IMG/VR virus record: IMGVR_UViG_3300037104_000796
Coordinates: 98,359-162,358 of that record
DNA length: 64,000 bases
Direction: 5' to 3' (one strand)
Origin: a virus
Shown here: in pieces, positions 21,918 through 57,495 of the stretch
Layout: the number at the start of each line of letters is the position of its first letter
Numbering within the stretch: the first letter of the stretch is position 1
Program-made: the position numbers and the translations under genes
Notes under the pieces: generated by a model
The model's input: only the letters and a program-made list of their open reading frames with translations
What the model was told of the DNA's origin: nothing
Database searches by the model: none

Positions 21918-22310
21918 ATGATACTCCCAGGAAACGAATCAAAAACACTCCCTATAATTATCTATGAAGAAATGAGGGGAACAATAGTAATAAAAGGTAG
22001 ATCAATTTCTCCAGAAGTAGAAAGTTATTTCGCTGATTTTACGCCTTATCTAGATGAATGCGTATCAAAAAATCCCATGGATTTGAAAATAGATATTGAT
22101 CTCGAGTATTTCAATACCAAAACTGCTAAAATCATGATTAAAATGCTTGACACACTTAAAAAAGTAGTAGAGACAGGTTTTAAAGTTGATGTAACGTGGT
22201 TTTACGAAGCAGATGATGAAGATATGTATGACGCAGGATTAGATTATGAAGAACTATCAAAATTAAAATTCAATTTTGTTGAAAAACCAAGCACAGAAAA
22301 ACCCGATTAA
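21918..22310 (+). CDS. SiaC/DUF1987-family regulatory protein
   Basis: 130 residues. Family signatures are clear: IKGRSISPEVESYF near residue 26, LEYFNTKTAK near 60, and VTWFYEADDEDMYDAGLDYEEL near 90-111. In Pseudomonas aeruginosa SiaC is a phosphoswitch protein that binds the diguanylate cyclase SiaD and is acted on by SiaA/SiaB; the phosphorylated Thr lies in the YxNT region, and a Thr is present here. Kinase, phosphatase and cyclase genes are absent from the window, so any partner must be elsewhere in the phage or in the host. Confidence 0.85.
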   Translation: MILPGNESKTLPIIIYEEMRGTIVIKGRSISPEVESYFADFTPYLDECVSKNPMDLKIDIDLEYFNTKTAKIMIKMLDTLKKVVETGFKVDVTWFYEADDEDMYDAGLDYEELSKLKFNFVEKPSTEKPD

Positions 22311-29415: not shown

Positions 29416-30081
29416 TTATGATTCGTCAATTATTTTTTTCAAGTCTGATGCAGCAAGTTCAATGTTATTGTAAACATCAATAATCATATCAGAGTTAAAC
29501 ACTTTGCGTGTAAATTTTGAAGATTTAACACCTTGATCATGACCAGTATCGAATGCATCTACAATTGTTTTGTAAGTTGCTTCAAGAAGACCATCGTTAA
29601 CATTATCAGGAATCCCTGCACTTCTTAAAACATGTGTGTATTTTCTTTTAAAGTCCATAAGACTTACAAGGCGTACATATCCATCTGCACTTACGTATTT
29701 ATATTCAAAGGGTTTAACATTTAGTACTTGAGGACGATTATTTTTTGGGCATTCTTTGTAATAAGGATCGCCCCAATCATTTTTCCTATAAATCATCTTT
29801 TTAAGAAGACGCTCATATTCAATGATTTCTTTTGCAATTTTAACCGTGCCTCTTGCAGGGTCTTTAACTACCCATATAAGTTGTGCTTCGGCTGTGGATG
29901 CTGGAATTACAAATACGCGTTTAAACATAATTTTTTTAACCGATGATAAGAAAATATCGTTCCAATAGTTTGGAAGTATTTCTGATAAAGGCCCAAATAT
30001 GTTTTTACGGTTGATATATTTTCCGCTTACTTTTACAACGAAAGCTTCAACTTTCTTTTGATAATTCTGGTCTGTTAACAT
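29416..30081 (-). CDS. Hypothetical protein
   Basis: 221 residues, soluble, with mixed helix and strand. Segments of note are RVFVIPASTAEAQLIWVVKDPARG and a helical C-terminus. No catalytic motif or known domain. The start overlaps the upstream gene by 35 nt; a later start is possible. Confidence 0.5.
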   Translation of the reverse strand: MLTDQNYQKKVEAFVVKVSGKYINRKNIFGPLSEILPNYWNDIFLSSVKKIMFKRVFVIPASTAEAQLIWVVKDPARGTVKIAKEIIEYERLLKKMIYRKNDWGDPYYKECPKNNRPQVLNVKPFEYKYVSADGYVRLVSLMDFKRKYTHVLRSAGIPDNVNDGLLEATYKTIVDAFDTGHDQGVKSSKFTRKVFNSDMIIDVYNNIELAASDLKKIIDES

Positions 30082-30298: not shown

Positions 30299-30662
30299 AA
30301 GATTCGAATTTATTTCCCTGCATGTCGTATCCTACCAATGTGATGCTATCTAAATAACATTTGTCTTGGTAGTCATTTTGTGGGTCATTAGGCACATTGT
30401 CATATGCGTTGGCCATTTCTTTATTGTATTCTTCAAGTATTTCATCATATTTCATTTCACTTTCCAAAACGGTTTTAAGATTTTGATAAAATTCAATTTG
30501 AGTTTTTATTTCACCAAGGTGCTTTTCATACTCTGAAAATGGAAAAGGCATTAAGAATTCTTGTGGGTGTTCGGTATCAGCATCTCCACCAGCAAACATT
30601 ACAAATATGTAAAAATTGTTGGCTCTGCTTTTTTCTTTAAGGGTAAATTTAATAGTTCTCAT
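30291..30662 (-). CDS. Hypothetical protein
   Basis: 123 residues with a beta N-terminus (TIKFTLKEKSRANNFYIFVMFAGG) and acidic helical centre. No recognised domain. It overlaps the upstream gene by ATGA. Confidence 0.5.
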   Translation of the reverse strand: MRTIKFTLKEKSRANNFYIFVMFAGGDADTEHPQEFLMPFPFSEYEKHLGEIKTQIEFYQNLKTVLESEMKYDEILEEYNKEMANAYDNVPNDPQNDYQDKCYLDSITLVGYDMQGNKFESYV

Positions 30663-30964
30663 TTATATTCAAAATTTAATTCATCAATTTTTTTCCAAAA
30701 GCTTAAATCCCATTGTTTTTCAACGGCTTCTTTATCGGCAATAAGTGTTTGTCCATGTAACAATCCAAATACATTATCATGTCCAAGCCAATAAATTTCA
30801 TCACCTTCTCGAAAACTTTTTTTAAAAATAGTCCAAATTAATTTAGACGGATCTAAACGTTCTCTGTGATGTCCTGTTTTATCATAAAGAAAAAGAAGAT
30901 TACGATTTTCAATAATCTCTCTTTCTCGTTTCCAATGTTTAACGTAATGTACTATTCCGAACAT
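30659..30964 (-). CDS. Hypothetical protein, first gene of a coupled set
   Basis: 101 residues, with FREGDEIYWLGHDNVFGLLHG in the middle suggesting a small beta-barrel. No function is recognised. It is preceded by a dyad/TATATT element and followed by overlapping genes down to 29416. Confidence 0.5.
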   Translation of the reverse strand: MFGIVHYVKHWKREREIIENRNLLFLYDKTGHHRERLDPSKLIWTIFKKSFREGDEIYWLGHDNVFGLLHGQTLIADKEAVEKQWDLSFWKKIDELNFEYK

Positions 30965-30983
30965 ATTTTATTTTGTTTAATAC

Positions 30984-31030
30984 AATATAATCAATTTTCT
31001 TGACACTAAAAAATTTTATGCCATTTATTT
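30984..31030 (-). promoter_or_regulatory. Dyad/TATATT promoter element (copy 8)
   Basis: AGTGTC replaces TTTGTC, but 12 nt still separate it from TATATT, and the flank ATGGCATAAAATTTTTT is shared with copy 12. Confidence 0.65.
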
Positions 31031-31717
31031 TTTATTTTTTTGTTTTGCTAATCGTATGTTTCTTTTATGTTCTTCTGTTCTTGGTGGTTTTTTCTTTCCA
31101 ATTAATTTTTTACTTAAATTGTCTTTATGCGTTTGTGATAGTGGCTTATCTTTTTTCGCATCTACCATTTTTTGACGAGATTCTTCAAAGATGTTATGTT
31201 TTTTTCCTTTTTGTTGTATTTGTTTCTGTTTTATATGTTCATTGTATTTTTGTGTTCCATCTTCAATACCATATTTTTCAATCCAAACATCCTTTAGTTT
31301 TCTTCCTTTCATTTTTGAAGGGAGTCCCTTTAAAGATTGACTTCTTAATTCACGCGTTATTTTCGATACAAATCTTCCTTGTTCAGATTTACTTATTTTA
31401 TCTTTTGTATCTTGAGAATGACAGCCATTAACACCGATACCACCCTTAGGACTAATATTATACCCATTTGGTGTTAACGTATTGTATTGAATGATATATT
31501 TTGATTGAGCATTAAATGCTTCTAATTTTGTATTAAATGTTTCTAAAATTATCTTTTTAAAATTTCTTCGAGTGTATTTTTTAATAGCAGCTTTTATTAA
31601 ATTTCCGCTACCTAAGTAATACCAGTGTTTATCGATATTATTTGTAACAGAATCACCAATATATTGTTTTCCGTTAACTAAATTCGTTGTTACGTAAACA
31701 TAAAAAACTTGTGCCAT
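31025..31717 (-). CDS. GIY-YIG homing endonuclease
   Basis: 230 residues. The N-terminal GIY-YIG domain (about residues 5-95) shows FYVYVTTNLVNGKQYIGDS, YLGSGNLIKAAIKKY and YNISPKGGIG. The C-terminal half has NUMOD3-like DNA-binding repeats of the S-x-x-T-R-E-x-x-S-x-x-x-K-G style. It lies next to the C-terminal RNA ligase fragment. A free-standing mobile gene. Confidence 0.85.
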   Translation of the reverse strand: MAQVFYVYVTTNLVNGKQYIGDSVTNNIDKHWYYLGSGNLIKAAIKKYTRRNFKKIILETFNTKLEAFNAQSKYIIQYNTLTPNGYNISPKGGIGVNGCHSQDTKDKISKSEQGRFVSKITRELRSQSLKGLPSKMKGRKLKDVWIEKYGIEDGTQKYNEHIKQKQIQQKGKKHNIFEESRQKMVDAKKDKPLSQTHKDNLSKKLIGKKKPPRTEEHKRNIRLAKQKNKK

Positions 31718-31727
31718 ACTTTTTTAA

Positions 31728-31738
31728 TTATATATTCG
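31728..31738 (-). promoter_or_regulatory. Late-promoter-like element for the 31025 endonuclease
   Basis: GAATATATAAT lies about 11 nt before ATG 31717 on the minus strand. Confidence 0.45.
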
Positions 31739-31767
31739 TAGTAAGCACAAGTTTTTACCTTAATCAA

Positions 31768-32020
31768 TTATTTTCCTTTATTGAGATCATAAGTTCTTGA
31801 TTTCGCTTTAAACGATAATCTGTTGAATTGAGCACGAGTAATTCGTACACCAACTGGCATAGTTCCTCTTGCAACATATACAAATCCTTCAATCAATTGA
31901 GCTGGATTCAATACTGAGTATGTAACGTCTGCTTCTTTAAGAAGATCGATTGCATTTTCTGGAAGAGTGTAATTGTCATCCAAAATAGGAACTGTTTCTA
32001 AACCTATTTCATTAATTAAC
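31768..32020 (-). pseudogene. RNA ligase (DRB0094-type) fragment D: C-terminal part
   Basis: The minus-strand frame reads LINEIGLETVPILDD and ends RLSFKAKSRTYDLNKGK; S-F-K is the motif V lysine of the nucleotidyltransferase ligase fold. It begins abruptly at an inverted repeat at 32017-32025, with no good start codon (first candidate TTG at 31983). It matches directly onto the end of fragment C if the intervening 2 kb is reversed: the codons for D-K-F-V-Q-L join to I-N-E-I-G in frame. Confidence 0.85.
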
Positions 32021-32025
32021 TGAAC
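32017..32025 (+). repeat. Inversion-end repeat, left copy
   Basis: TAACTGAAC, exact inverted copy at 34046-34054. Ligase reading frames on both strands end or change at this point. Confidence 0.8.
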
Positions 32026-32240
32026 CAGAACGTGAAGTTATCAAGGCTAAAATGGCTGAAATCTCTAAATTAAATACTCGTCCAGAATTCGAATTCCTTC
32101 GTGCTGTTAAATTTCACATCAAAACTCGTAGAATTTTAGGTGAAATATCATGTGGCATAGTATTTCCTATTTCAATCTTAAACAAAATTGGTAAAATATC
32201 TGAAAAGGACGGAAAACTTTTCTTGGAATTGGATATATAA
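32021..32240 (+). pseudogene. RNA ligase fragment B: N-terminal middle part
   Basis: The plus-strand frame EPEREVIKAKMAEISKLN continues to RPEFEFLRAV and RRILGEISCGIVFPISIL, matching the segment between the N-terminal domain and the adenylation motif in DRB0094-type RNA ligases. It ends at LELDI-stop. An ATG at 32052 could start a 62-residue product. Its missing upstream part is fragment A on the other strand. A GIY-YIG gene follows 12 nt later. Confidence 0.8.
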
Positions 32241-32246
32241 TATAAA
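32232..32246 (+). promoter_or_regulatory. Late-promoter-like element for the 32253 endonuclease
   Basis: GATATATAATATAAA overlaps the end of ligase fragment B and precedes ATG 32253 by 6 nt. Confidence 0.45.
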
Positions 32247-32252
32247 AACATT

Positions 32253-33059
32253 ATGAATACTAGGAGAGGTTACATCTATGTGATACTAAATAAAATAAAT
32301 GGAAAGTATTACTATGGAAAAACTTTTAACATAAAAAACAGATGGAATAAACATATTTTTAATGCTAATAAAAAAATTAATAGACACCTTTATGACGCAA
32401 TGAATCATTATGGATATGAAAATTTTTCTATACATCAAATAAGTGAAATAATTGAAAATAAAGATATAATAACTAAAAAATTAAATGAATTAGAAACATC
32501 TTTTATATCATTAACAAATGCGCAAGACTCTAATTTTGGATATAATATGTCAAAAGGCGGTGATGGAGGATATTTAGGTGAAGAGGCCGTAGAAAAAATG
32601 GCTGCAAAAAAACGAGGAGTTGCATTATCTAAAGAACATAAAGATAATATTGGAAAAGGAAATAAAGGAAAAAATAAAGATAAACATCGAACTGAAGAAG
32701 AAAAACAACATTTAAGTAATTTGTACGAAGGAAAAACTTATGAAGAAATATACGGAGAAGAAACTGCAAAATTAAAAAAAGAACACGCCAGCAAAACCAT
32801 GAAAGGAAGAAAACGAAAACCTTTTTCAAAAAAATGGAAAGAAAATATCGGAAAGGCTTCGGCAGAACGTTTTAAAAAACAAAGAGAATTAAAAATATCA
32901 TCTATAGATACTGATGAAATAGAGAATTTATTAAAAAACAACATAAAGTCTAATGAAATACCAAATATATTTAAAGTTGATATACGCATGCTTAACTTTA
33001 TATTTATAAAAAAATATGGTATGACATTATACAAATATTCGCAAACAATGAAAAAATGA
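32253..33059 (+). CDS. GIY-YIG homing endonuclease with NUMOD3-like repeats
   Basis: 268 residues. The GIY-YIG domain begins RGYIYVILNKINGKYYYGKTF (Y-x9-Y-x-G) with the catalytic Arg in IKNRWNKHI. Between residues 115 and 210 are repeats rich in S-K-E-H-K-x-N-I-G. A C-terminal helix-turn-helix-like segment follows. It separates ligase fragments B and C. Confidence 0.85.
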   Translation: MNTRRGYIYVILNKINGKYYYGKTFNIKNRWNKHIFNANKKINRHLYDAMNHYGYENFSIHQISEIIENKDIITKKLNELETSFISLTNAQDSNFGYNMSKGGDGGYLGEEAVEKMAAKKRGVALSKEHKDNIGKGNKGKNKDKHRTEEEKQHLSNLYEGKTYEEIYGEETAKLKKEHASKTMKGRKRKPFSKKWKENIGKASAERFKKQRELKISSIDTDEIENLLKNNIKSNEIPNIFKVDIRMLNFIFIKKYGMTLYKYSQTMKK

Positions 33060-33063
33060 AATC

Positions 33064-33480
33064 ATGAAAAAACTATCTTTATTACTAATTTTAATATCAC
33101 TGGGAATATTTTTTAATTCATGTAATAATAACAATCGTGAATTAAAAGCTTATATGAAAAAAGCTGCAATTGAATATGATGCAAAAATTAATCCCCTTAA
33201 AAAAGGAATGGATAGGACACAAAAAGATATTGATTCTTGCTTAAATTCTTGGACTGTTTATGATAACAATAAAGATATTCTTAATATGACTGAAAAAGAA
33301 TTTAAGAAATATACAATTATTAAAGAAGAAAGAGAAAAATTCGTAGATAATCTTTTCACAAAATTTGATAGTTTAAAACATGAAATTGAAAAAATATCTC
33401 CTGAGTATTTTTTAACAACCGAAGAAATAACGGAAATACATTATAAAGCAAAAGAGATGGTAAGACAATTATCAAAATAA
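33064..33480 (+). CDS. Small lipoprotein
   Basis: 138 residues. The signal peptide ends LGIFFNSC (Cys near residue 20), followed by NNNN. The mature part is a charged helical domain, probably coiled coil. It lies in the inverted segment between ligase fragments and may have been carried with the endonuclease gene or have been there earlier. Confidence 0.65.
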   Translation: MKKLSLLLILISLGIFFNSCNNNNRELKAYMKKAAIEYDAKINPLKKGMDRTQKDIDSCLNSWTVYDNNKDILNMTEKEFKKYTIIKEEREKFVDNLFTKFDSLKHEIEKISPEYFLTTEEITEIHYKAKEMVRQLSK

Positions 33481-33487
33481 GTAAAAT

Positions 33488-34075
33488 ATGAAACAATTAA
33501 TAGAATTATACGACGGAGTCGATCTTACTGATATACTTGGTGTTATTCAGTATGTTGCGCCGGACCCAGCAATTATGGGTGGAGATGCTGCTGGAACTCT
33601 TACAGGTGTTGGTCTTCTTATTTCTGATGAAGAAAGATTGGAAAACCTTAATGCCAAATACGAAGTTATGAGATTATTTCAGTACTACAAAACTGAAAAA
33701 CTTGAAGGAACTTCTTTCACAGCATATTTAAAAGATGGAAAATTTGGAGTTTGCGGTCGTACTGTTGACTTCCAAGTTCCTGATGAAGATGATCCTTTTG
33801 AAGGATTGAACTCTTACTGGAAAACTGCAATAAGATTTGGTATGGAAGAAAAATTGAGAACTATTTGGGTTCTTTCGGATGATGAATCTGATCTTTTTGC
33901 TCATAAGTTAGATAACATTGCCATCCAAGGCGAACTCATTGGAGAAGGCATTCAGGGTAACATTTACAAACTTAAAGGACAAGTGGTTAAGTTTTACAAT
34001 GCTTTTTACATTGACAAACAAGAATATATGCCTTTCGATAAATTCGTTCAGTTACTTTTGACATTTGCTTGTTAA
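33488..34075 (+). pseudogene. RNA ligase fragment C: adenylation domain core
   Basis: 195 codons. EKLEGTSFTAYLK holds the motif I nucleophile Lys (K-x-x-G), FGVCGRTVDF fits motif Ia/III, and IQGELIGEGIQGNIYKLKG fits motif IV. The frame carries its own ATG (MKQLIELYDGVDLTDILG). After the inverted repeat at 34046 the last seven codons (LLTFAC) are foreign, read from the opposite strand of fragment A. Motif V is missing and lies in fragment D. Confidence 0.85.
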
Positions 34076-34319
34076 GAGCTCTCCATTCTTCTTTCTTTTC
34101 AACAGTCAATCCATCAGGCATAATTGAGTCTGTCTCGACATATACGCATAAATCTCCGATCTTAAAATCCTTTTTCTTTACTACAACCCACCAGCCACGA
34201 ACTCTAGCGTGTTCAATATTATCAGCACCGACAATAGGCTTAATTTCTTCTATACGAGCGATAGTTGCTAATTTTCGAATATCAGCAGTTTCATTAGTTA
34301 AATTTATATTTTCTGTCAT
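33987..34319 (-). pseudogene. RNA ligase fragment A: N-terminal domain
   Basis: Residues 1-90 read IRKLATIARIEEIKPIVGADN and WWVVVKKKDFKIGDLCVYVETDSIMP, the conserved N-terminus of DRB0094-type RNA ligases. At the inverted repeat the frame passes into reversed fragment C and ends after about 20 foreign residues (RIYRKAYILVCQCKKHCKT). Reversal of the segment would instead continue it to fragment B in frame (SKVTE-PEREV). Confidence 0.85.
34046..34054 (-). repeat. Inversion-end repeat, right copy
   Basis: GTTCAGTTA on the plus strand, the exact reverse complement of 32017-32025; together they bound the RNA ligase inversion. Confidence 0.8.
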
Positions 34320-35032
34320 ATCTTTTTGTGTTTGCAGTTATCACCATGAAATTGTTTATATGGGCTTGGCTGTGTTAATTTTCCGCACCATTCACATTGT
34401 ATTTTTGGAATATTTTTATGGGATTCACTTAATTTGCTAATAATTTTCTCTGTACGTTCGTAAGATGTATGGGCCGAATTTAGACTAATTTTATTTTTCC
34501 ATTCAATAAGTTTTTTATCAGCAATTTCTTTCCCGTATTTATCTACCCATATATTATATGCATTTGTGCCGAACATTCCGTTTTTTTCTCCAGAGGTTTT
34601 TTTATTTTGTTTTCTTGTAAAAGAAATTTTGTCAATCGATTCTTTTTTATGTTTTTTATCAAACATTGGATTTTTATCGCCATTATGATCAACATTTTCT
34701 TTTTGTTCTGGCGTCCATTTGTAACCTATGCATCCTCGACCTCCTAAATTAAGATTATATCCGCCTTCGCTTACATGAGAATGAAAATATTTTATCCAAA
34801 ATTGTTCTTTTTCACTCCAATCGATTAAGTCGATATATTCTATAATTCCCATTATAAAATTATCGGGTTTATATTTTTTAATTGCTGCATCTAATGTTTT
34901 ACTGCTCCCATAATATTTGTCTTTGTCAAATTCTTTATTTGAAGCGTGAAAGCCTACATAACATTTTTTGTTTATCATGTTTTTAATCATGTAAATAAAA
35001 TGATATTTATATGCGCTTTCTACATTAATCAT
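34316..35032 (-). CDS. GIY-YIG homing endonuclease
   Basis: 238 residues. KYHFIYMIKNMINKKCYVGFH opens a GIY-YIG domain, followed by KYYGSSKTLDAAIKKY and YNLNLGGRG. NUMOD3-like repeats and a C-terminal zinc site (CEWCGK, CKHKK) follow. It overlaps the start of the RNA ligase by ATGA, so a third mobile gene flanks this ligase. Confidence 0.85.
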   Translation of the reverse strand: MINVESAYKYHFIYMIKNMINKKCYVGFHASNKEFDKDKYYGSSKTLDAAIKKYKPDNFIMGIIEYIDLIDWSEKEQFWIKYFHSHVSEGGYNLNLGGRGCIGYKWTPEQKENVDHNGDKNPMFDKKHKKESIDKISFTRKQNKKTSGEKNGMFGTNAYNIWVDKYGKEIADKKLIEWKNKISLNSAHTSYERTEKIISKLSESHKNIPKIQCEWCGKLTQPSPYKQFHGDNCKHKKI

Positions 35033-35247
35033 TTACTTTTTCTTCCATGTTTTTTAACAATAATGGTTCCTTCTAATTTATGCCAATCACGTTGACATAC
35101 GTTGTGTGTTCCACCAGACCAATCACCTTCGAGTTCAACTTGGTCAGGTTTGACTCGTAATCCAACGACTAAGAAAGTTTCATTCCCGTGATAAATATCC
35201 GGGTGACAAACTTGGTCGTATAATTCAATTTTATTTTTGTTTCCCAT
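35029..35247 (-). CDS. Hypothetical small protein
   Basis: 72 residues from ATG 35247 (MGNKNKIELYDQVCHPDIY). The longer open frame to 35304 is embedded in the upstream gene. The sequence suggests a small beta-barrel (LVVGLRVKPDQVELEGDW). Unknown function. Confidence 0.5.
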   Translation of the reverse strand: MGNKNKIELYDQVCHPDIYHGNETFLVVGLRVKPDQVELEGDWSGGTHNVCQRDWHKLEGTIIVKKHGRKSK

Positions 35248-35509
35248 CGTCTTGGTAATATGCTTTGTAATTATATGGATCGTATATGTTTTTGGCTTTA
35301 ACATATTCCCAAGGACAAATACTCATTTCACTTTCCTGAGGACTTAATAATTTAAGTTTTGCACATTCAGCAGGAGGATTGTTTTTGATATTAATTACTG
35401 CGTAATCTACTTCGTATAAATACGAACCATCCATCCTTGATTTTCCTAATGCGTTAAATCTTGGATCGTTGATGGGCTTTTTAACTGAAATTACTGCGTT
35501 GTGATTCAT
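35231..35509 (-). CDS. Hypothetical protein
   Basis: 92 residues, no recognised domain. It contains two cysteines far apart and is aromatic at the C-terminus. It overlaps the downstream gene by 17 nt. Confidence 0.5.
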   Translation of the reverse strand: MNHNAVISVKKPINDPRFNALGKSRMDGSYLYEVDYAVINIKNNPPAECAKLKLLSPQESEMSICPWEYVKAKNIYDPYNYKAYYQDDGKQK

Positions 35510-37526: not shown

Positions 37527-37871
37527 TTACACTACAAGAATTTCATCGTATGGTATGCCCAATTCATTGGCTACTTCAGCTATGATTTTTTCCCCTATCT
37601 TTCCAATTTCATCAGAATCGATATTGCCTAAGCCCTTTTCAACAACGTCAGGTTCCCAACCTTGTTCAACTACTTTCATCCACCAAATATTTCTGCAATC
37701 TTCAATAGTCTCTTCGTCATTTGAATCATTCCAAGGAAGATAATCTTTAAATACTTTTTCCATTTTTGCTTTCCATGCTCTATAAATTTGTGCATGATAT
37801 CTTTGATAAAAAGCACGAACTTTTTTGTCGGCTGAATATTCATCTAAAGCTTCTTTAACTAATTTTTTCAT
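37527..37871 (-). CDS. Leader-tagged small protein
   Basis: 114 residues beginning MKKLVKEALDEYSADKKVRAF. V-K-E/A fits the leader rule. The helical body shows no known domain. Its start overlaps the nucleotidyltransferase stop by ATGA. Confidence 0.6.
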   Translation of the reverse strand: MKKLVKEALDEYSADKKVRAFYQRYHAQIYRAWKAKMEKVFKDYLPWNDSNDEETIEDCRNIWWMKVVEQGWEPDVVEKGLGNIDSDEIGKIGEKIIAEVANELGIPYDEILVV

Positions 37872-38329
37872 ATCGATATTTTATTTTTAATTCCTCTTAA
37901 TTCGGGTTCTTTCCAAGTCATTTCCATTGCGTTGAAAATTTCTTCCTCATTTTCTCCTGCAATGAATTCGCGGGTTTCTCTATCATACAAGCCTTTTTGA
38001 TTTAAAAGCATTCCTTTGCGTTTTGCTTTGGCTCTCATTATGATGTTAAATTCCTGAGGTCCTGTTAAAAACAAAAGCATTGCACCAAAATTCTCAGGAT
38101 CAGTTCTGTAAATATCAACTTGTTCACCATCAATAGTGTAACGAGTAATATCTTTGCCTTTAACAAAAGCTACTTGGCCTGGAATCATTGGAACTTTTTC
38201 TCCCATATACACAACATCCAAGTCATGCAAATCCTCTTTTTTTCCACGTCTTGCAGAACCTGCAATGTAGAAATTATCATCTATTGATTTAAGATAATCA
38301 AAAATTTTGTGAGCTTTTTCTGCATTCAT
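37868..38329 (-). CDS. DNA polymerase beta-type nucleotidyltransferase (PolX-like C-terminal domain)
   Basis: 153 residues from ATG 38329 (MNAEKAHKIFDYL); the next upstream ATG at 38359 overlaps the previous gene. IAGSARRGKKEDLHDLDVVY is the G-S-x-R-R-G...D-x-D catalytic motif, and GEQVDIY carries the third acidic residue. FLTGPQEFNIIMRAKAKRKG fits the PolX palm/thumb. It would add nucleotides to a DNA or RNA end; with the CCA-adding-like gene two genes upstream it suggests an end-repair or tRNA-repair set. Confidence 0.8.
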   Translation of the reverse strand: MNAEKAHKIFDYLKSIDDNFYIAGSARRGKKEDLHDLDVVYMGEKVPMIPGQVAFVKGKDITRYTIDGEQVDIYRTDPENFGAMLLFLTGPQEFNIIMRAKAKRKGMLLNQKGLYDRETREFIAGENEEEIFNAMEMTWKEPELRGIKNKISI

Positions 38330-38330
38330 C

Positions 38331-38714
38331 TTAAAATGATTTAGCGTTTTCTTTACCACAAATTAATTTTGCAATAATATATTCTTTGCTTAAAGAATCA
38401 GGAAGACCTTCTCCATCATCGTCGTTGAATTCAGTTTCAAAGAAATCTGCATAATCACCTAAATCTTCATAAGAAAGTTCTGTTTTAGGCGATTCCAGAA
38501 TTTCTTGAATTCCCGCATCGATATGTTCTAACATGTCTTCCAATGTCATATCATATGCATCTGGATTGAATTCATCACCCATAGCTGCAACTTCAGAACC
38601 ATCTGGTGTTGACATACAAAACATACTGTCATCATATTTATCGGGCTTTGGAATTGATTTTAGAATTTTATCTAAATCAGATTCATTTAAACTTTCTTTT
38701 ACTAATTTTTTCAT
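38331..38714 (-). CDS. Leader-tagged acidic protein
   Basis: 127 residues, beginning MKKLVKESLNESDLDKILKS. The leader V-K-E/S is identical in style to the 53357 protein. The body is acidic (GDEFNPDAYDMTLEDMLEHID). It overlaps the CCA-type gene by ATGA and is followed two bases later by the PolX-like gene. Confidence 0.6.
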   Translation of the reverse strand: MKKLVKESLNESDLDKILKSIPKPDKYDDSMFCMSTPDGSEVAAMGDEFNPDAYDMTLEDMLEHIDAGIQEILESPKTELSYEDLGDYADFFETEFNDDDGEGLPDSLSKEYIIAKLICGKENAKSF

Positions 38715-41817: not shown

Positions 41818-42600
41818 TTAGTTTTTATATGTTCCGTAAGTTACAATTTTTACTCCTTTTTTCTCTGCAGCTTTCATTTTACTGGAGGTTGAATTCAAAT
41901 CATCAGTTATAAGGAAGTTACAATTTTTGTCTGTAACTGATACTTCAACCAAGTTTGGGAATTTTGTTATGAACTCCTCTTTTGTTTTGAATCCGAATGC
42001 TTTGGGTGAGCCAGTCATACAAACGTATATAGTTCCGGCTACTTCCTTTTTATCTTCGGGTTTATCAATCGTTATACCGAGTGATTCGAGTTCACTTACA
42101 AAATATTTGATATTTGATACTATTTCAGGTTCCTGAAGTTTTCTTACAAGTGCTTTTTCAATAGAAGCATAATCAGGAGTTAATCCACAATACTCTCTAG
42201 CTGCTTGTTCAGAAACTTTTCTTCCAATACCATCATATCCTTGAATAAGAATAACCTGAGAATATTTAAGAGATTTGATATTTTTGAAAGCATTTACGAA
42301 AATTTCTTCTGAACGTGAACCCATTGGGATTCCGTATTTCAACATGTTGATGTTATTCTGATTCTTAAGAACCCAAACCATAAGATCGTACATGTTATAA
42401 AAATCCTGAGCAAATGGTTCAATTGTTTTTCCACCAATTCCTTTAAGATCGAGTACTCCAACTGCAGCTCCTAATTTACGAGCGATTCTTCCTTCACAAT
42501 TTTTATTGTTACACATAAGGTGTATGCCATCAAATGTAAGAGGTTCTCCACATGCAGGACATACTGAAGGCATATATTTTTGTAATTCTTTATCTATCAT
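41818..42600 (-). CDS. NAD-dependent DNA ligase, C-terminal part (zinc finger, HhH, BRCT)
   Basis: 260 residues. CPACGEPL and CNNKNCEGRI form the four-Cys zinc finger; VLDLKGIGGKTIEPF and YDGIGRKVSEQAA are helix-hairpin-helix elements; the last 80 residues are a BRCT domain. In bacterial LigA these follow the OB fold in one chain. Here they start at their own ATG with a dyad/TATATT promoter, so the two halves are separate genes and must assemble as a complex. Confidence 0.9.
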   Translation of the reverse strand: MIDKELQKYMPSVCPACGEPLTFDGIHLMCNNKNCEGRIARKLGAAVGVLDLKGIGGKTIEPFAQDFYNMYDLMVWVLKNQNNINMLKYGIPMGSRSEEIFVNAFKNIKSLKYSQVILIQGYDGIGRKVSEQAAREYCGLTPDYASIEKALVRKLQEPEIVSNIKYFVSELESLGITIDKPEDKKEVAGTIYVCMTGSPKAFGFKTKEEFITKFPNLVEVSVTDKNCNFLITDDLNSTSSKMKAAEKKGVKIVTYGTYKN

Positions 42601-42625
42601 AATAATTTATTTTAATTGTATAGTA

Positions 42626-42673
42626 AATATAACAATAATTTCTGACACTAAGAAATATTTTGCCATTTATTTT
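42626..42673 (-). promoter_or_regulatory. Dyad/TATATT promoter element (copy 12) between ligase halves
   Basis: AGTGTC, 12 nt, TATATTTACTATACAATTAAA. The last 20 or so bases are identical to copy 14, suggesting recombination or duplication of a promoter when the gene was divided. Confidence 0.7.
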
Positions 42674-43335
42674 TTAATAATTTTTCCTATTCCCAACTCC
42701 CAGCCATTATCTAAATAATAATTAAGATTTTCTTTTTTAATCATTTTACGTTTTTCATCCGAATGAACCCATATTCGTTCTTTTGTAGCTTTTCCACTAC
42801 ACCAAGATTTTTTTTGTTCTGGCGTAAGCTTATATCCTACATGAGATTTCGAAAGTTGATCTATATGTTCTTTTGAAAATTTTAATCGTCCCAATTTCCA
42901 TCCATTATGTAAAAAATCTTGTAAATTTTCTGGGCAAATCGTTATATTTTTTTCGCCATTATTTATCCATTTACGGAGTTTAGCTTTATTGCTTATTTGT
43001 TTAACTATTTGATTATAATTTGGATGAAAAGTTAGGCCATTATATTGTTTTTCAATATTATAACCACTTTTTATAGAATCATAAAAATCAATATAATAGT
43101 CTTCTCGATCTTTTAATGTTTTTTTATCTGAAGGAAGTACTTCAATTATTTCTTTTTTGAAATTTTCAACACCATATTTTCGAATAGCATTATAAAATTT
43201 TGTTCCACTTCCCAATTTTGCATTTACTATATGTGATCCCCATCTTTTATAAATATTTACACTACAACCTACATATTTTTTATCATTTACGATATTTGTC
43301 CATAAGTAAATTCCTGAAATGATTTCCTTTTTCAT
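42667..43335 (-). CDS. GIY-YIG homing endonuclease dividing the DNA ligase gene
   Basis: 222 residues. SGIYLWTNIVNDKKYVGCSVNIYKRW is the GIY-YIG core with catalytic Arg; the C-terminal half has NUMOD-like segments with repeated W-x-x-N-G motifs (KWINNGEKNITICPENL). It separates LigA domains Ia-OB (43381) from the zinc finger onward (41818). Confidence 0.85.
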   Translation of the reverse strand: MKKEIISGIYLWTNIVNDKKYVGCSVNIYKRWGSHIVNAKLGSGTKFYNAIRKYGVENFKKEIIEVLPSDKKTLKDREDYYIDFYDSIKSGYNIEKQYNGLTFHPNYNQIVKQISNKAKLRKWINNGEKNITICPENLQDFLHNGWKLGRLKFSKEHIDQLSKSHVGYKLTPEQKKSWCSGKATKERIWVHSDEKRKMIKKENLNYYLDNGWELGIGKIIKK

Positions 43336-43344
43336 AACAATTTT

Positions 43345-43357
43345 AATTTATATATTC
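43345..43357 (-). promoter_or_regulatory. Late-promoter-like element for the 42667 endonuclease
   Basis: GAATATATAAATT lies 9 nt before ATG 43335 on the minus strand. Confidence 0.45.
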
Positions 43358-43380
43358 TTTTATGAAGCAGGAGATATCAT

Positions 43381-44538
43381 CTATTCAGGGGACAGTGGTG
43401 TAAAAGAAGTGCCATCTAAAGAAATTATTTTTTGTATAGCCGGAATTATATCACCGCGTTTACATATACTAACAAAAGTTCCTTCCGTTATTTTATTTCT
43501 AAGTATATATCCAGCGTTATATCCAGAAGCTCTTTTAACTGAGGTTCCAGCTAACTGTACGGGTTTCAACTTTACAACTGGGGTTAATTCGCCGGTTTTT
43601 CCAAGATTCCATTCAATTCCGATAACTGGAGTGACTGCTTCTTCAGGAACAAATTTGATTGCGATTGCCCATTCGGGATCGTGATCATTTTCACCAAGCT
43701 GTTCTCTGAATTCAACTGGAAGAGCAAAAACGATTCCATCCAACTGGAATTCGAAGTTTTCACGTAAACCTTCCATGTATTTAACTGAAGACATGTAGTC
43801 TTTTACAGTTGCACGTATTTTTGTAGAATGGGTGTGTCCGAAGATAGGATAATCATAGGTAAGTTCATCCAAATAATGAATTTCCTGAGGTTTTCCATTG
43901 ATAAGGAAAAGAAGAGGAACGAGGGTAAGGTCACCAACTTTTTCAACACTGTAATCATCTTTACCAAGAATACCTGCAACGATATTACGAGCGTTTGCAA
44001 ATTCGGCAGCATATTTCTTTTGGAATGTTGATTTAAGCATTACACATTCACAACGTATTTCTATAATTTCTGTAGTATGTTCTGGAATTGGGAAACTTGC
44101 TGGCAAATGTTTTCTGAATCTATCTGAAATGTCTTTTCCAACTTTTCCATCACCTCTTGTAAGAACTGATTCAAGTTTGCCATCACGATAAACTATATTG
44201 ACACTACTACCATCAAATTTGGGTGTATAGTACATGTATTCGAATTTAGCATTAACTGATGCTTCTCTTTTTGAAAGCCAAGTACTGAATTCTGCTTCAC
44301 GGTAGTTTGTAACACCTTTTTCAGATTCAGTTTGGAATTTTGCTAAAGATTTTAAAGGAGTGGGATGTGGAAAGTCAAAATCTTTTCTTTTTGAACCGAC
44401 CTGTTCAATTACCTTTGAACCAGCGTCTTTAAGTTCTTTTTCGATAACATCAAAAGCGGCATCTGACATAATCGGATGACCTTCATAATAGGCAACTTTG
44501 GCCTTAAGATATTGGGTTTCGAGATTCAATATATTCAT
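43381..44538 (-). CDS. NAD-dependent DNA ligase, N-terminal part (Ia, adenylation, OB)
   Basis: 385 residues. Domain Ia has YYEGHPIMSDAAFDVIEKEL; the adenylation motif is TPKFDGSSVNIVY with the nucleophile Lys in K-F-D-G; TRGDGKVGKDIS and VVKLKPVQLAGTSVKRAS follow, then the OB fold ending in CKRGDIIPAIQK. It stops at LSPE, just before the zinc finger would begin. Its own dyad/TATATT promoter precedes it. Confidence 0.9.
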   Translation of the reverse strand: MNILNLETQYLKAKVAYYEGHPIMSDAAFDVIEKELKDAGSKVIEQVGSKRKDFDFPHPTPLKSLAKFQTESEKGVTNYREAEFSTWLSKREASVNAKFEYMYYTPKFDGSSVNIVYRDGKLESVLTRGDGKVGKDISDRFRKHLPASFPIPEHTTEIIEIRCECVMLKSTFQKKYAAEFANARNIVAGILGKDDYSVEKVGDLTLVPLLFLINGKPQEIHYLDELTYDYPIFGHTHSTKIRATVKDYMSSVKYMEGLRENFEFQLDGIVFALPVEFREQLGENDHDPEWAIAIKFVPEEAVTPVIGIEWNLGKTGELTPVVKLKPVQLAGTSVKRASGYNAGYILRNKITEGTFVSICKRGDIIPAIQKIISLDGTSFTPLSPE

Positions 44539-48090: not shown

Positions 48091-48579
48091 TTATTTTTCA
48101 AATCTTTTTCTTGCAGCATCTGTGATAAAAATGTATTCTGCTTTGCCAATAAAATCATCTAATGTTTTAGCATTACAATAACTCATTGCCGATCTTAAAT
48201 AATCTTTAAAGTTTTCTGTCCATTGTTCTAATGTGTATTCAACTTTTTGATATTTTGTAATTCCTTCAGCCGTTACTAAATCTGTCTTTCCCCATTTTCT
48301 TTGTACTGCTTTGGTACTCATACCTCTGTATTTCTTTTTAATTGGGAATCCCCATCTCCAGAGTAATCCAGCCGTTTTATTATTTATTCGCATTTTCCAG
48401 AGATAATTAAATCCCGCTGATTCGATGGATTTATTAAATGTTGATCCAATCATCACATAATCTGAGTTATGAACAATAATTCCGTTGACATTATACGAAT
48501 GATTATCTTCTACTTCTAAATCATACACATTGCCTGAATATGTATAAATTTTTTTTGATTTAATTTCAATTAATTTCAT
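48091..48579 (-). CDS. Split intein C-terminal part fused to IMPDH/GMP reductase C-terminal part
   Basis: 162 residues. Residues 1-38 are an intein C-fragment: VYDLEVEDNHSYNVNGIIVHN is block F plus G with terminal His-Asn. The C-extein starts with Ser (SDYVMIGSTFNKSIESAG) and continues with KKYRGMSTKAVQRKWGK and SAMSYCNAKTLDDFIG, the C-terminal catalytic-flap region of IMP dehydrogenase/GMP reductase. Trans-splicing with the 49698 product would restore the enzyme, joining LALG to SDYV. Confidence 0.9.
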   Translation of the reverse strand: MKLIEIKSKKIYTYSGNVYDLEVEDNHSYNVNGIIVHNSDYVMIGSTFNKSIESAGFNYLWKMRINNKTAGLLWRWGFPIKKKYRGMSTKAVQRKWGKTDLVTAEGITKYQKVEYTLEQWTENFKDYLRSAMSYCNAKTLDDFIGKAEYIFITDAARKRFEK

Positions 48580-49714
48580 ATTTTATACTTTTAGTTTTTT
48601 TATCGATAACTTTAATTTCATAAAAATATCCAGCTTCTTTAGCATATTTTTGTTTTAATAATATATTTTTTAAATATTTTTCCTGGGATGTCCATTCGCT
48701 TTTAACTTCTATAATTTTATTTTGTGATTTTAAAAATATATCAGGAATATGATAATGTTCTTTTTCATTTTCATCTTTCCATTTTATTTTAGGACAATCT
48801 AAATTAGTTAATATATCATTTTCATTTATTTCTGATTTAATTAAAATATCTAACATTATATTTTCATACCCTAACACATAAGTTATTCTGCCTGATTTAA
48901 ATTTATATTCTTTAATTTTAAAACTATTTCTAAATATTTTATTCTGAATTATATTACTTTGAAATCCGTATTCACAATTATATAATTCTAACATTTTTTC
49001 TTTTGAACGTTTAATACAAATATCTAATAAAAATGCATTTTTTACTCCATATTTAGTAATCATAATATTTTCAACCTTTTCTTTTATTAACCGAGTTTGC
49101 CATGGATATTCTACTCCATAATTTTTAAGAGAAGTTTGAATTTTTTTATTTTTTATTTCATCTGATTTACTCGGATTATCTACACCGAAATGTTTTAAAC
49201 ACGTTTGTTTATATTTTTTCTGATTATTAAAATTTTCATCGCCATATCTTTCTTTTTTAGTTTTTTTACTTTTTTGTTTAATTTCATTAGATTGAAAAAT
49301 ATTTGTAGATACATCGTATTTTTTTAATAAAATTGTTTTACATTCGTTTGTAGCTAAATACGATGTAACACCAAATTTTTTTATACACGTTTCTTTTTGT
49401 TTTTTTGAATTATTATATTTTTCATCTCCATATTTTTCTTTTTTTGTTTGTTTTCTTTTTTTCTCATCAGCAAACGCTGCTTTAAACCCATATTTAGTAA
49501 TGCACGTTTCTTCTATTTTTTTTCTTATAATTGGAGATTTTTGTATTTCTGATTGAGTTTTTTTGGGGATATTATATTTTTTAAAATAATATTCTATATT
49601 TCCTCTTGAAACATCTAATTCTTTTTCAATCATACTGATTGAATATTCTTTAACTAAATATAAATGTTTTAAAATTTCTTCAGATAATTCTTTTCTTTTA
49701 CGATAGTTTTTCAT
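48566..49714 (-). CDS. Endonuclease gene between split-intein halves
   Basis: 382 residues, paralogue of the 470 and 12250 genes but without their N-terminal zinc fingers: it opens with a helix-turn-helix-like segment (ISMIEKELDVSRGNIEYYFKKY). The middle has at least seven repeats containing Y-G-(V/D/F) and a variable N-x-x-K/Q-S-N-E-I. The C-terminus has IPDIFLKSQNKIIEVKSEW, the PD...E-V-K nuclease core. It overlaps both intein genes by 14-17 nt. The layout matches published 'fractured genes'. Confidence 0.75.
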   Translation of the reverse strand: MKNYRKRKELSEEILKHLYLVKEYSISMIEKELDVSRGNIEYYFKKYNIPKKTQSEIQKSPIIRKKIEETCITKYGFKAAFADEKKRKQTKKEKYGDEKYNNSKKQKETCIKKFGVTSYLATNECKTILLKKYDVSTNIFQSNEIKQKSKKTKKERYGDENFNNQKKYKQTCLKHFGVDNPSKSDEIKNKKIQTSLKNYGVEYPWQTRLIKEKVENIMITKYGVKNAFLLDICIKRSKEKMLELYNCEYGFQSNIIQNKIFRNSFKIKEYKFKSGRITYVLGYENIMLDILIKSEINENDILTNLDCPKIKWKDENEKEHYHIPDIFLKSQNKIIEVKSEWTSQEKYLKNILLKQKYAKEAGYFYEIKVIDKKTKSIKYEIN

Positions 49715-50795
49715 GTAATTTTTTAAATAATTTTAGATATAATATATATATCTTTGAAAAAATATTTTTAAAATACATTTGCATACGGTGCGGTAAATTG
49801 ATATTTTTTTCTATTAATAAATAATCTGAATTTAAATCTTCTGCTGCAATCCATTCAGCATATTTATCGATATTTTTTTCAGTAACTAAATCTTTATGTT
49901 TTTTATGAATTACATAATAATGATGATTATTTGTAGAAAAAATTCCATTTATAGAAATAATATCTTTATTATTTTCATATTTAAATTTATTAATAACTTT
50001 TTTGTATTCGCCCGTGTGCGTATAAACAATTTCGCCGACATTGATATTTTGAATTTGTTTAAATCCATTTTTAGTATACACTAATGTTGAAGGAAGAAAA
50101 CATCCAAGAGCTAATGCCTTTATTATATCTGCATAGTTTTTCATTCCACCATCAGTAACTATCTTTGTAGTAATACCATATTGTTTTCTAAGACTATAAC
50201 ACTCTGATATTAAAGAACCCAGTGGATAATTTATTGAAACATTAGCTGCTGTAGTGCATCCTGCGCCAGTTCCAACACTACATCTTACATAATCGGCACC
50301 AGCCATGCCAAGATTTATAAAGGTTTCTGGGTTGGCCACATTGCCAATCATAAGATTACAAGTAGGCGCATATTTTTTTATTTGCTTAACAATATCTATA
50401 AGTTTAATCATGTGTCCATTGGCTATATCAATAAGAATATTAGGATAGCTGTAAAATGGATCTCTTACGTAATCACCGTGTAAAGTAATTTTATCTAAAA
50501 TTTTTAGTTGTTCTTCAATTTCTGATAAACTAAATGATTGAAAATAAAGTGGCGAACCAACTAAAAATTTTTTAACTAATCCACGTGGAATACAAGGAAT
50601 TATTCCCTGTTGAATATATTTTGTATAATTTTGTCCTGAAACAACAGTATCCATTGGAGAAGCCATCAAAGGCAATCTTGCTCCATACGTAAAATCTGAT
50701 TCTATTTGGCATTCTTTTCTACTGCTGATTTCACTTTGTTCACTCGGAATCAAAACGATATCGTTTAAATCCCATTTCAGTTTTTCTATATTCAT
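49698..50795 (-). CDS. IMPDH/GMP reductase N-terminal part fused to split intein N-terminal part
   Basis: 365 residues from ATG 50795 (MNIEKLKWDLNDIVLIP). Residues 1-231 are the TIM-barrel of the IMP dehydrogenase/GMP reductase family, with MASPMDTVV, GNVANPETF, SVGTGAGCTTAA (catalytic loop Cys near 180) and IVTDGGMKNYADI. Residue 232 is the intein Cys1 (CFLPSTLVY), followed by intein block B (NNHHYYVIHK) and an N-fragment of 134 residues. No CBS domains are present. The insertion lies just after the K-A-L-A-L-G strand, in the phosphate-binding part. Confidence 0.9.
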   Translation of the reverse strand: MNIEKLKWDLNDIVLIPSEQSEISSRKECQIESDFTYGARLPLMASPMDTVVSGQNYTKYIQQGIIPCIPRGLVKKFLVGSPLYFQSFSLSEIEEQLKILDKITLHGDYVRDPFYSYPNILIDIANGHMIKLIDIVKQIKKYAPTCNLMIGNVANPETFINLGMAGADYVRCSVGTGAGCTTAANVSINYPLGSLISECYSLRKQYGITTKIVTDGGMKNYADIIKALALGCFLPSTLVYTKNGFKQIQNINVGEIVYTHTGEYKKVINKFKYENNKDIISINGIFSTNNHHYYVIHKKHKDLVTEKNIDKYAEWIAAEDLNSDYLLIEKNINLPHRMQMYFKNIFSKIYILYLKLFKKLHEKLS

Positions 50796-50863
50796 ACTAT
50801 TTTTGTTATTATATGTATAAAACATTATACAGTTTTTGTCATATAATTAATAAATACACTTTT

Positions 50864-54000: not shown

Positions 54001-57000
54001 TTAGCATTTTGAATAAGAGCAACTATCGCAATGAACACATGCTTCTTCTCTTATCATATTTCCCCCACATTCTGGACATTTTTCCTGAAGTACTTCAGTT
54101 TCTACATATTTTCCTAAAATTCTTCTACATACAGAACTAAATCCTGTAATGTTTTCATCAACCTTTTTAGCTACATGAACAATATGCTCAATTGGAGCTC
54201 TGTGTCGAAGCAACATGCTCAAGAAAATAGTGTGTGCTTTTTGCTCTATTTTATCTGAAGCTAATTGAAGATTTTCGATTTCAAATTCGTGATTAACAAA
54301 TTTATAATGACCCTTTTTAACTTTAATAATTCTGCCATCAGTATTTTTATCCATAGGCGGATTTTCAAATGCAAATATTTCATAAGGTTTTCTTGTATCT
54401 TTATACAAACCTACAATTACTGCATATTTGATTCCATTGGCTGTGGCAACATAGTAATCAGCTTTTAATTCTCTAGGCCTCTTCAAAGCATTCACAGGTG
54501 TAAAATCATCTTCTTCTTTTTTATTCGTTAACAATACTCCTTGTCTTGAACCCTCTCGGTAAATTGTACAACCTTTACAACCTGACTTCCATGCCTGAAA
54601 ATAAATTTTGTTTACTTCTTCAATTGAAATATTTTGAGGTAAGTTGTGTGTTACTGAAATACTATGATCTATCCATTTTTGAATTACACCTTGCATATTA
54701 ACTTTTTCCATATAATCAATAGTATGTGACTCAGAACCTGCCCAAGGAGATTCTGCAACTAATTTAGTTACAGTTTCATCAGATAATAATTCCATCATTT
54801 TAAGAACATCATCTGTAGATTTTTCTTGGAAATTTTCAAATAAATGAACTTTTGTGTTTTTAGCCCAATTAATAAATTCAGGGTGAAATACATTGTATTC
54901 TTGCCAACAATCACCATTCTCATCTTTATAATCTACTTTAACTCCGGCCTCACTCGGATTTATTTTTCTTCTTCTTTTGTAATAACATTTAAAGACAGGT
55001 TCAATGCCCGAAGTTGTTCTTGCTAATATAGCAAGTGATCCTGTAGGCGCTATAGATAAAGTAGCAATGTTTCGTCTTCCATATCGTAAATAGTCATTGT
55101 ACTCTTGTGTAGTAAAATGATTGCTAATTACTCGAATAATAAAAGGATTTTGTGATTCTTTATCTGCATTCCAAATTGGAAAGCAACCTCTTTCTTTTGC
55201 AAGTTGAACCGATTCTCTATATGAATTAACAGCAATAGTTTCAAATACTTTATCAATAATAAGTGTAGCATCCTTTGTCCCGTATCTAACTCCAAGTTTT
55301 GCGAGCATATCGCCCAATCCAAGAACTCCGATACCTGTTCTTCTTCCTTTGTTTAAAACTTCAAGAACTTTTGTCCATACATTTAATTCTGTTCTCTTTA
55401 ACTCTGGATCTTCAGGATCACTTTTTATTTTTTTAATAATATCCTTTATCTTTTCTTCTTCCAGTGACACGAGATCATCCATGATTCTTTGCGTAAATCG
55501 AATTACCTCAGTTAATAAAGCATAATCGATCTTTGCTTTGTCCGTATACGGATCTTTCACCATGTTACTTAGATTCATTGAACCAAGACGACATGAATCA
55601 TAAGGTGATAGTGGCACTTCCCCACAATTTTTGATAGAAATACCTGATGATGTAATAAATAAAGGATCGACATTAGCAGTTATAACGTTATAATTGTGAT
55701 TATCGTCTACTGTTAAATTGTATACATCTTCGTATCCGTAAAATTCTACTGATACAACTTTATGATTATTAACTACTTGATTTTTAAAATTATCAAATGA
55801 AGTAAACCTAAAATTATTAGCGATATTTTGAGGATAACCATGTTCTTCAGCATATTTTCTCCAGTCACTTCTAATAAATTTTCCTTTTTGAAGAAAAAGT
55901 TCTTTTGCGCCTTGTAATATTTGCGCGTTTGTAACGGGAATATATGTATGATTTTTTTCACCTGGATGTGACGCAAATTTAAACTTTGATTCTTTACTCA
56001 TTTTATAATAAGGATTTTTGTCTCCTCTCATTCGTGCAGCGTGAAATTCAATATGTTCTTTACGCAACATTTTTTGTAAATTCTCAGGTCTATCATTTTT
56101 ATTGTTAAAATCATAATGATGTATAGAATATAATTTATGATCTACATTTTCATCTTGATTATAAAACCCATAAATTAAGTGATACTGTCTTCTATTTCTA
56201 AATGCGCCGCCAATCATTTTAGCGCCAGTTCTTGCGATTTGTCTATAACCATTTGACGCAAATGAATAAAAAGGAACAAGAGATTCACCTGGAGTTAAAT
56301 CTTTTAATTGTTTGTAATTAAGTTTTGATGTTAAAATTTGGTGATCTGGAGTCGCAATAAGTTCTGAACCATCATCTAATTTTAATTTCCATACTTCAAC
56401 ATTTTTCTTTGTTAATCTGGGTTCTCTTCCCCATTTAATTTCAGTTTGTCCAGTTTCAGGATTTGATGAATAAACAGGAACGTCTTTTCCTTCTTCAGTT
56501 AACTGTTTTATTGATACTGCGTTTCTTCCGTCTGCAACCGCAATAAGTGTATCACCGACAACACAAGGATTTGTTCCTTTAGTTGTAAAGCCATCAGACG
56601 CGTAACAATCTGCTGGTGATTCTTTAATAATGTTGTCCCAAAATAATACGCCGGGTTCAGCAGTTTTGTGCGCTTGTTTGATTAACAAATCCCATACTTC
56701 ACGCGCCTTAACTTTCATTATGTATGAACCATCTTCGCGTTTGTATAATTTGTTGTATACAAGTTGATCAAGAATAAGAGGTTGATCATTTTGAACTGGC
56801 CAACGAAGAATGTAATCTGCATCACCTTCTACAGCTTTCATAAATTCGTCTGTCACTTTCACAGACACATTGGCGCCTGTTACTTTTGTGAGATCATCCT
56901 TTTTAACAATGAATTGTTTTATATCAGGGTGATTGATATGCATACTGAGCATTAAAGCTCCTCTTCTACCATCTTGTGCAACCTCACGAGTTGAATGTGA

Positions 57001-57495
57001 ATAGCGATCCATAAAAGACACAGCACCTGTTGAAGTTTGCGCAGCATTATTTACTTCAGCTTGGGATGGTCTGAGATTTTCAAGAGTTATACCTACTCCA
57101 CCTCTACGTTTCATAAGTTGAACCATAGATTCGTCAATATTGAATATGGCACCATAAGAATCTGCTCCATTATCAATGAAAAAGCAATTTCCTAATGATG
57201 ATACTTGATGTTTATTTCCAAGACCAAATAAAATTGAGCCTCCGGGAATAAAGTATTTAAAGTGTTCTAAATGTTTTTGTATTGTTTCTTTTGGCAAAGG
57301 ATTAGGAAATTTAAGTTCCATTCGATAAAATTCATCGATCATTCTCTGAATTGTTTCTGTGGGGTGTCCTTCTTCCCATTTGCCATTCTTTTTGAGTGCG
57401 TACTTTTTTGCCCACACGTCGGAGGCGAGAGAATCGTTTTCGAAGTATGTTAAGCCTGCACTTATTAAATCTTTTTCGTTATATTCTTTTTCCAT
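54001..57495 (-). CDS. nrdJ: Ribonucleotide reductase, class II (AdoCbl-dependent, NrdJ), with intein
   Basis: 1164 residues in total. N-terminal PGGSILFGLG, SSLGNCFFI and RGGVGITLENL; mid GTGVLGLGDML-like TGIGVLGLGDML and SIAPTGSLAILARTTSGIEPVF; then KGCTIYREGSRQGVL; a C-terminal TSCPD-type domain and a four-Cys zinc site (CPECGG, CVHCDSCSYSKC) as in NrdJ. An intein of about 313 residues occupies positions 311-623. Removing it joins TNP to CGEVPL, so the enzyme's thiyl-radical cysteine (N-x-C-x-E) is the first residue after the intein. It reduces ribonucleotides to supply dNTPs. Confidence 0.93.
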   Translation of the reverse strand: MEKEYNEKDLISAGLTYFENDSLASDVWAKKYALKKNGKWEEGHPTETIQRMIDEFYRMELKFPNPLPKETIQKHLEHFKYFIPGGSILFGLGNKHQVSSLGNCFFIDNGADSYGAIFNIDESMVQLMKRRGGVGITLENLRPSQAEVNNAAQTSTGAVSFMDRYSHSTREVAQDGRRGALMLSMHINHPDIKQFIVKKDDLTKVTGANVSVKVTDEFMKAVEGDADYILRWPVQNDQPLILDQLVYNKLYKREDGSYIMKVKAREVWDLLIKQAHKTAEPGVLFWDNIIKESPADCYASDGFTTKGTNPCVVGDTLIAVADGRNAVSIKQLTEEGKDVPVYSSNPETGQTEIKWGREPRLTKKNVEVWKLKLDDGSELIATPDHQILTSKLNYKQLKDLTPGESLVPFYSFASNGYRQIARTGAKMIGGAFRNRRQYHLIYGFYNQDENVDHKLYSIHHYDFNNKNDRPENLQKMLRKEHIEFHAARMRGDKNPYYKMSKESKFKFASHPGEKNHTYIPVTNAQILQGAKELFLQKGKFIRSDWRKYAEEHGYPQNIANNFRFTSFDNFKNQVVNNHKVVSVEFYGYEDVYNLTVDDNHNYNVITANVDPLFITSSGISIKNCGEVPLSPYDSCRLGSMNLSNMVKDPYTDKAKIDYALLTEVIRFTQRIMDDLVSLEEEKIKDIIKKIKSDPEDPELKRTELNVWTKVLEVLNKGRRTGIGVLGLGDMLAKLGVRYGTKDATLIIDKVFETIAVNSYRESVQLAKERGCFPIWNADKESQNPFIIRVISNHFTTQEYNDYLRYGRRNIATLSIAPTGSLAILARTTSGIEPVFKCYYKRRRKINPSEAGVKVDYKDENGDCWQEYNVFHPEFINWAKNTKVHLFENFQEKSTDDVLKMMELLSDETVTKLVAESPWAGSESHTIDYMEKVNMQGVIQKWIDHSISVTHNLPQNISIEEVNKIYFQAWKSGCKGCTIYREGSRQGVLLTNKKEEDDFTPVNALKRPRELKADYYVATANGIKYAVIVGLYKDTRKPYEIFAFENPPMDKNTDGRIIKVKKGHYKFVNHEFEIENLQLASDKIEQKAHTIFLSMLLRHRAPIEHIVHVAKKVDENITGFSSVCRRILGKYVETEVLQEKCPECGGNMIREEACVHCDSCSYSKC
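55627..56565 (-). mobile_element. Intein with HNH endonuclease domain inside nrdJ
   Basis: Intein residues 311-623 of the host protein. Block A is CVVGDTLIAVADG, block B is IATPDHQILT, block F is VYNLTVDDNHNYNV; the C-terminus ends SIKN followed by Cys, with Lys where His is usual before the terminal Asn. The insert between has DHKLYSIHHYDFNNKNDRPENL and KEHIEFHA, an HNH-type nuclease motif, so it may still be mobile. Confidence 0.85.

Follow-up and report, generated by a model that had tools for sequence, protein, structure and literature searches.

A 2038-bp inversion in a phage RNA ligase gene that was probably already divided by a homing endonuclease insert

Four ligase fragments and their closest described counterparts

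Phage enzyme genes that are divided into two ORFs by an endonuclease gene lodged inside them are known from Aeh1 nrdA/mobE, T4 gene 60/mobA and Aeromonas phage 25 gene 43/seg (PMC2988022), and for Aeh1 and phage 25 the gene halves reassemble into an active enzyme (PMC2988022). The locus described here, which lies within a 64,000-nt stretch of viral DNA (the window), shares with these precedents the presence of an endonuclease gene inside a conserved enzyme gene, resulting in two ORFs, but differs from them in that the host gene is an RNA ligase, the cut falls between two domains, in a linker, and both halves were subsequently disrupted by an inversion. DRB0094 (DraRnl) and Naegleria gruberi RNA ligase provide the protein template: as in the window, an N-terminal OB domain (PF21189) is followed by a C-terminal nucleotidyltransferase domain (PF09414) with motifs I, IV and V, whereas the window gene has been split in two and then inverted, with no single ORF encoding a ligase. 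Invertons and intragenic phase-variable inversions, of the Hin/Gin type or as in Bacteroidales, also resemble the locus in that a segment bordered by inverted repeats switches a coding frame when inverted; in contrast to these, the window repeat measures only 9 bp and lacks conservation, a recombinase was not detected and nothing points to the presence of two orientations.

The original prediction had assigned four fragments, A to D, to one DRB0094-type ligase. Their positions are as follows, with identities given relative to the ligase of a related virus (G003, IMGVR_UViG_3300031999_000026):

34055..34319, minus strand: fragment A, 5' end of the ligase gene, first part of the OB-fold module (PF21189, E = 8.7e-21; 62% amino acid identity)
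32021..32240, plus strand: fragment B, completing the N-terminal OB-fold module begun in A, to which it joins in frame (66% amino acid identity)
33488..34054, plus strand: fragment C, carrying the nucleotidyltransferase domain and, in it, motif I KLEG (PF09414, E = 3.3e-11; 64% amino acid identity)
31768..32016, minus strand: fragment D, 3' end of the ligase gene with motifs IV (EGFVYV) and V (SFKAKS), continues C in frame when flipped (71% amino acid identity; its DNA matches G003 on the same strand as the flanks do)

All four pieces are open, and the composite of A+B plus C+D amounts to 424 codons with no stops or frameshifts. The PF21189 match reached E = 5e-25 for A+B and the PF09414 match E = 3.1e-16 for C+D, and the KLEG, EGFVYV and SFKAKS elements align with invariant columns of the RNA_ligase nucleotidyltransferase domain. 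A+B and C+D each align end to end with contiguous ligases, the best being that of G003 (65%), and the best solved-structure matches of the intact G003 ligase are the Naegleria Rnl entries 5cot and 6vt3. Judging from these domains and motifs, the ancestral gene was an RNA ligase of the Deinococcus DRB0094/Naegleria Rnl type. The assignment of all four fragments to a ligase was thereby upheld; their union into one ligase was not, in that flipping the interval back yields two ORFs, of 162 and 271 aa. In the present orientation no ligase can be made, as had been foreseen, because motif I lies on the plus strand (in C) and motifs IV and V on the minus strand (in D). ORF A runs past the break to 33987 and ORF C to 34075, thereby including 19 and 7 unrelated residues, respectively. 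A second intact ligase was not found on the 162-kb contig, where PF09414 matched once only.

End points and polarity of the inversion

The rearranged interval and the repeats at its borders are:

32017..34054: inverted segment of 2038 bp, on the strand opposite to the flanks relative to G003, both joins in frame once flipped
32017..32025, plus strand: left break point, with the 9-bp inverted repeat TAACTGAAC
34046..34054, minus strand: right copy of the 9-bp inverted repeat at the break

Reverse-complementing 32017-34054 joins A and B in frame to give 162 aa (...SKVTE|PEREV...) and C and D in frame to give 271 aa (...DKFVQL|INEIG...), confirming both predicted joins. The two copies of the 9-bp repeat were located where they had been proposed, one on either strand, and the inversion with its end points was borne out by this frame restoration together with the DNA comparison with G003, in which G003 matches window positions 31750-31995 and 34055-34178 on one strand but 33527-34027 on the opposite strand.

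Close relatives among viral contigs, a set from which near-identical records may be left out, were not retrieved by single-protein scans with C, A+B or the products of two neighbouring genes, the tRNA nucleotidyltransferase and a 221-aa protein. Using the topoisomerase gene as query, we obtained four fragments of related viruses (72-84% identity), G003 being one of them. Its ligase is contiguous (405 aa, 65% identical to composite residues 8-424), has no insert and is flanked by homologues of window 29416-30081 and 37868-38359. Colinearity with G003 is broken only for the inverted piece, and the remaining contig is colinear with all four relatives. Since the syntenic G003 ligase is contiguous and C lies on the strand opposite to A and D in the window, the inverted state is the derived one. 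Both restored joins are nearly lossless, being 1 and 2 codons shorter than in G003. Of 139 related loci drawn from viruses and genomes, 129 show one continuous segment, and only the locus described here has its ligase divided between the two strands; among the genomes compared, the inversion is present in one only. The composite differs from the G003 ligase by a dN of about 0.27 at saturated dS, with the neighbouring genes at a dN of 0.13-0.47. Because 424 codons are still open and this dN falls within the range of the neighbouring genes, the inversion, and any loss of the ligase, would be recent relative to the divergence from G003.

The break repeats are exactly 9 bp long and the matching bases stop sharply outside. 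For random point pairs 2029 bp apart in this window, the chance of encountering a 9-bp inverted repeat is 0.3% within ±10 nt and 1.4% within ±20 nt; as this chance is so small, the repeat at the break points is probably meaningful, with microhomology having guided the inversion. We nevertheless attach modest weight to nine matching bases as evidence for microhomology. A third copy of TAACTGAAC, at 15381, is situated inside the topoisomerase gene and looks like a chance occurrence.

The endonuclease insert and other interrupted genes

The interval between B and C, and the two outer flanks of the ligase, are occupied by the following genes:

32253..33059, plus strand: GIY-YIG homing endonuclease gene between B and C (PF01541, E = 6.6e-11; phrog_314 homing endonuclease, E = 5.5e-25)
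33064..33480, plus strand: small ORF belonging to the insert, with a lipoprotein-like signal MKKLSLLLILISLGIFFNSC (no Pfam family; PHROG matches weak only)
31025..31717, minus strand: GIY-YIG/SegE-like endonuclease gene directly downstream of D (PF19835, E = 1.2e-5; phrog_314, E = 3.1e-33)
34316..35032, minus strand: GIY-YIG endonuclease gene directly upstream of the ligase (phrog_314, E = 1.1e-27), its stop overlapping the ligase start codon

The insert separating B from C measures 1.25 kb and falls within the linker that connects the OB domain to the nucleotidyltransferase domain, so that a GIY-YIG gene now lies between ORFs that are contiguous in G003. As the endonuclease gene and the lipoprotein-like ORF both lie between B and C, the state before the inversion comprised two genes, of 162 and 271 aa, rather than one; the original prediction overlooked that the gene had already been split by the insert. 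A locus in L136 (JAIPIH010000043.1, 166-2191) displays the same layout as the window locus before inversion, with ORFs for the OB module, the GIY-YIG endonuclease and the nucleotidyltransferase following one another on the same strand. This distant contig is binned as Cloacimonadota and phage-like by look. The cut is in the same variable linker in the window and in L136, just before a conserved D-(T/S)-(D/E)-ILG stretch, and within the sampled set the endonucleases of the two inserts match each other best (44% over 103 aa).

A group I intron was considered as the nature of the insert and discarded: 30500-35500 gave no Rfam match, and each of the two new ORFs possesses a start or stop of its own. 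Nor does the ligase seem to be a general endonuclease hot spot, as only L136 and G003 of the 139 loci have an adjoining endonuclease. In G003 (L165, 8451-9278), the gene directly downstream of the ligase is a different putative homing endonuclease, HNH-like by look, at the place where the window has a GIY-YIG gene.

The phage lineage is rich in such interrupting elements, since the NAD-dependent DNA ligase, PolB, IMPDH and RNR genes of the window show interruptions similar to that of the RNA ligase; the contig has 11 GIY-YIG matches. A GIY-YIG gene at 42667-43335 apparently interrupts the NAD-dependent DNA ligase (41818-44538), with the adenylation and OB domains in 43381-44538 and what looks like the C-terminal part, devoid of a Pfam match, in 41818-42600. 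At 58156-60307, a family B DNA polymerase piece ends early and adjoins a GIY-YIG gene, and the ribonucleotide reductase at 54001-57495 carries an in-frame intein splicing domain. The IMPDH/GMP reductase gene (48091-50825) consists of two pieces separated by the gene for a DUF7487 protein; the C-terminal piece bears an intein splicing domain, and the arrangement resembles published fractured genes with split inteins. Furthermore, the orientation of a SiaC-like gene at 21918-22310 is opposite to that in the G004 fragment (L174, 15475-15861), the neighbour's orientation being kept; the ends of this gene in the window share no inverted repeat of at least 7 bp.

Origin of the inversion and fate of the ligase

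We consider it probable that two successive events shaped the locus, an endonuclease-associated split followed by a one-off 2038-bp inversion between chance 9-bp repeats that left a pseudogene. A GIY-YIG homing endonuclease gene and the lipoprotein-like ORF would first have been inserted into the linker that joins the OB and nucleotidyltransferase domains, leaving the ligase encoded by two ORFs that could plausibly still have worked as two polypeptides. Then, in one recent and conservative event, the 2038-bp stretch bounded by 9-bp inverted repeats that happened to be present in either half would have been inverted, separating motif I from motifs IV/V by strand and turning the gene into a pseudogene. 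Double-strand breaks introduced by the three neighbouring endonucleases might perhaps have helped the inversion, which is conjecture on our part. Of the three options offered in the original prediction, namely a reversible switch, a one-off mutation and an assembly artefact, the one-off event fits best, the switch found no support and assembly error is unlikely.

The artefact would be an amplification or library product, either a chimera from multiple-displacement amplification or a long-read mis-joining, the real phage having the flipped-back split gene. Chimeras arising during amplification are typically inversions at short microhomologies, and the four fully open fragments as well as the occurrence of the inversion in no second genome would be in line with such an origin. 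Against this stands that the two junctions are reciprocal, use the same repeat pair and cost at most 1-2 codons, so that two matching chimeras would have to dominate the reads; for this reason, an amplification chimera is less likely than a real inversion. Short-read assemblers, moreover, use k-mers far longer than a 9-bp repeat, identity here being confined to the repeat itself, and the colinearity of the rest of the contig with the four relatives points the same way. On balance, we regard an artefact as unlikely.

A programmed reversible switch (inverton) turning the RNA ligase on and off, perhaps as phase-variable tRNA repair countering host anticodon nucleases, would account for the inverted repeats at both ends, the clean in-frame restoration and the undecayed pieces, as expected of a live switch. 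We nonetheless judge it very improbable. The repeat is only 9 bp long with identity ending sharply outside, and inverted pairs of this length are abundant, the A+T-rich window having 1064 inverted 9-mer pairs spaced 1.5-2.5 kb. Conserved inverted-repeat sites as known from invertons were not found, as neither strand of the G003 ligase gene contains TAACTGAAC, at the equivalent sites or elsewhere. The linear 162-kb record, which may be incomplete, gave no PF00239 (Resolvase) or PF00589 (Phage_integrase) match indicative of a serine or tyrosine recombinase, with a host enzyme or a missing genome part as a possible source. Moreover, the invertible stretch holds the endonuclease insert that the close relative G003 lacks. 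A 20-mer of the other-orientation junction was not found in viral contigs, a weak result given that near-identical records may be left out. The commonness of such pairs, the absence of the motif from G003 and the lack of a detected recombinase together favor a one-off event over a programmed switch. That the segment is an active switch toggling a two-polypeptide RNA ligase in RNA-repair counter-defence, by means of a host recombinase or one from an unsampled part of the phage, we hold to be exceedingly doubtful.

Equally hard to accept is that the present arrangement is functional, with C and A serving as truncated proteins in a new role or B and D being made from new starts: all pieces are open and an ATG is present within ORF B at 32052, but C is devoid of motifs IV and V, D is devoid of motif I, and A and C read into short unrelated tails.

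We infer that a one-off, microhomology-based inversion took place in a real phage genome and that the ligase has since been lost. The inversion most likely shows that the ligase is dispensable; it may be so because it is also absent from the partly colinear G004 fragment, which matches the window on both sides of the locus. A series of events in one phage gene would thereby come into view, from a whole ligase, as in G003, to one split at a domain boundary, as in the window before the flip and separately in L136, and on to one broken by the flip. The OB/nucleotidyltransferase linker, split in two distant contigs, makes this a candidate for a natural two-piece RNA ligase.
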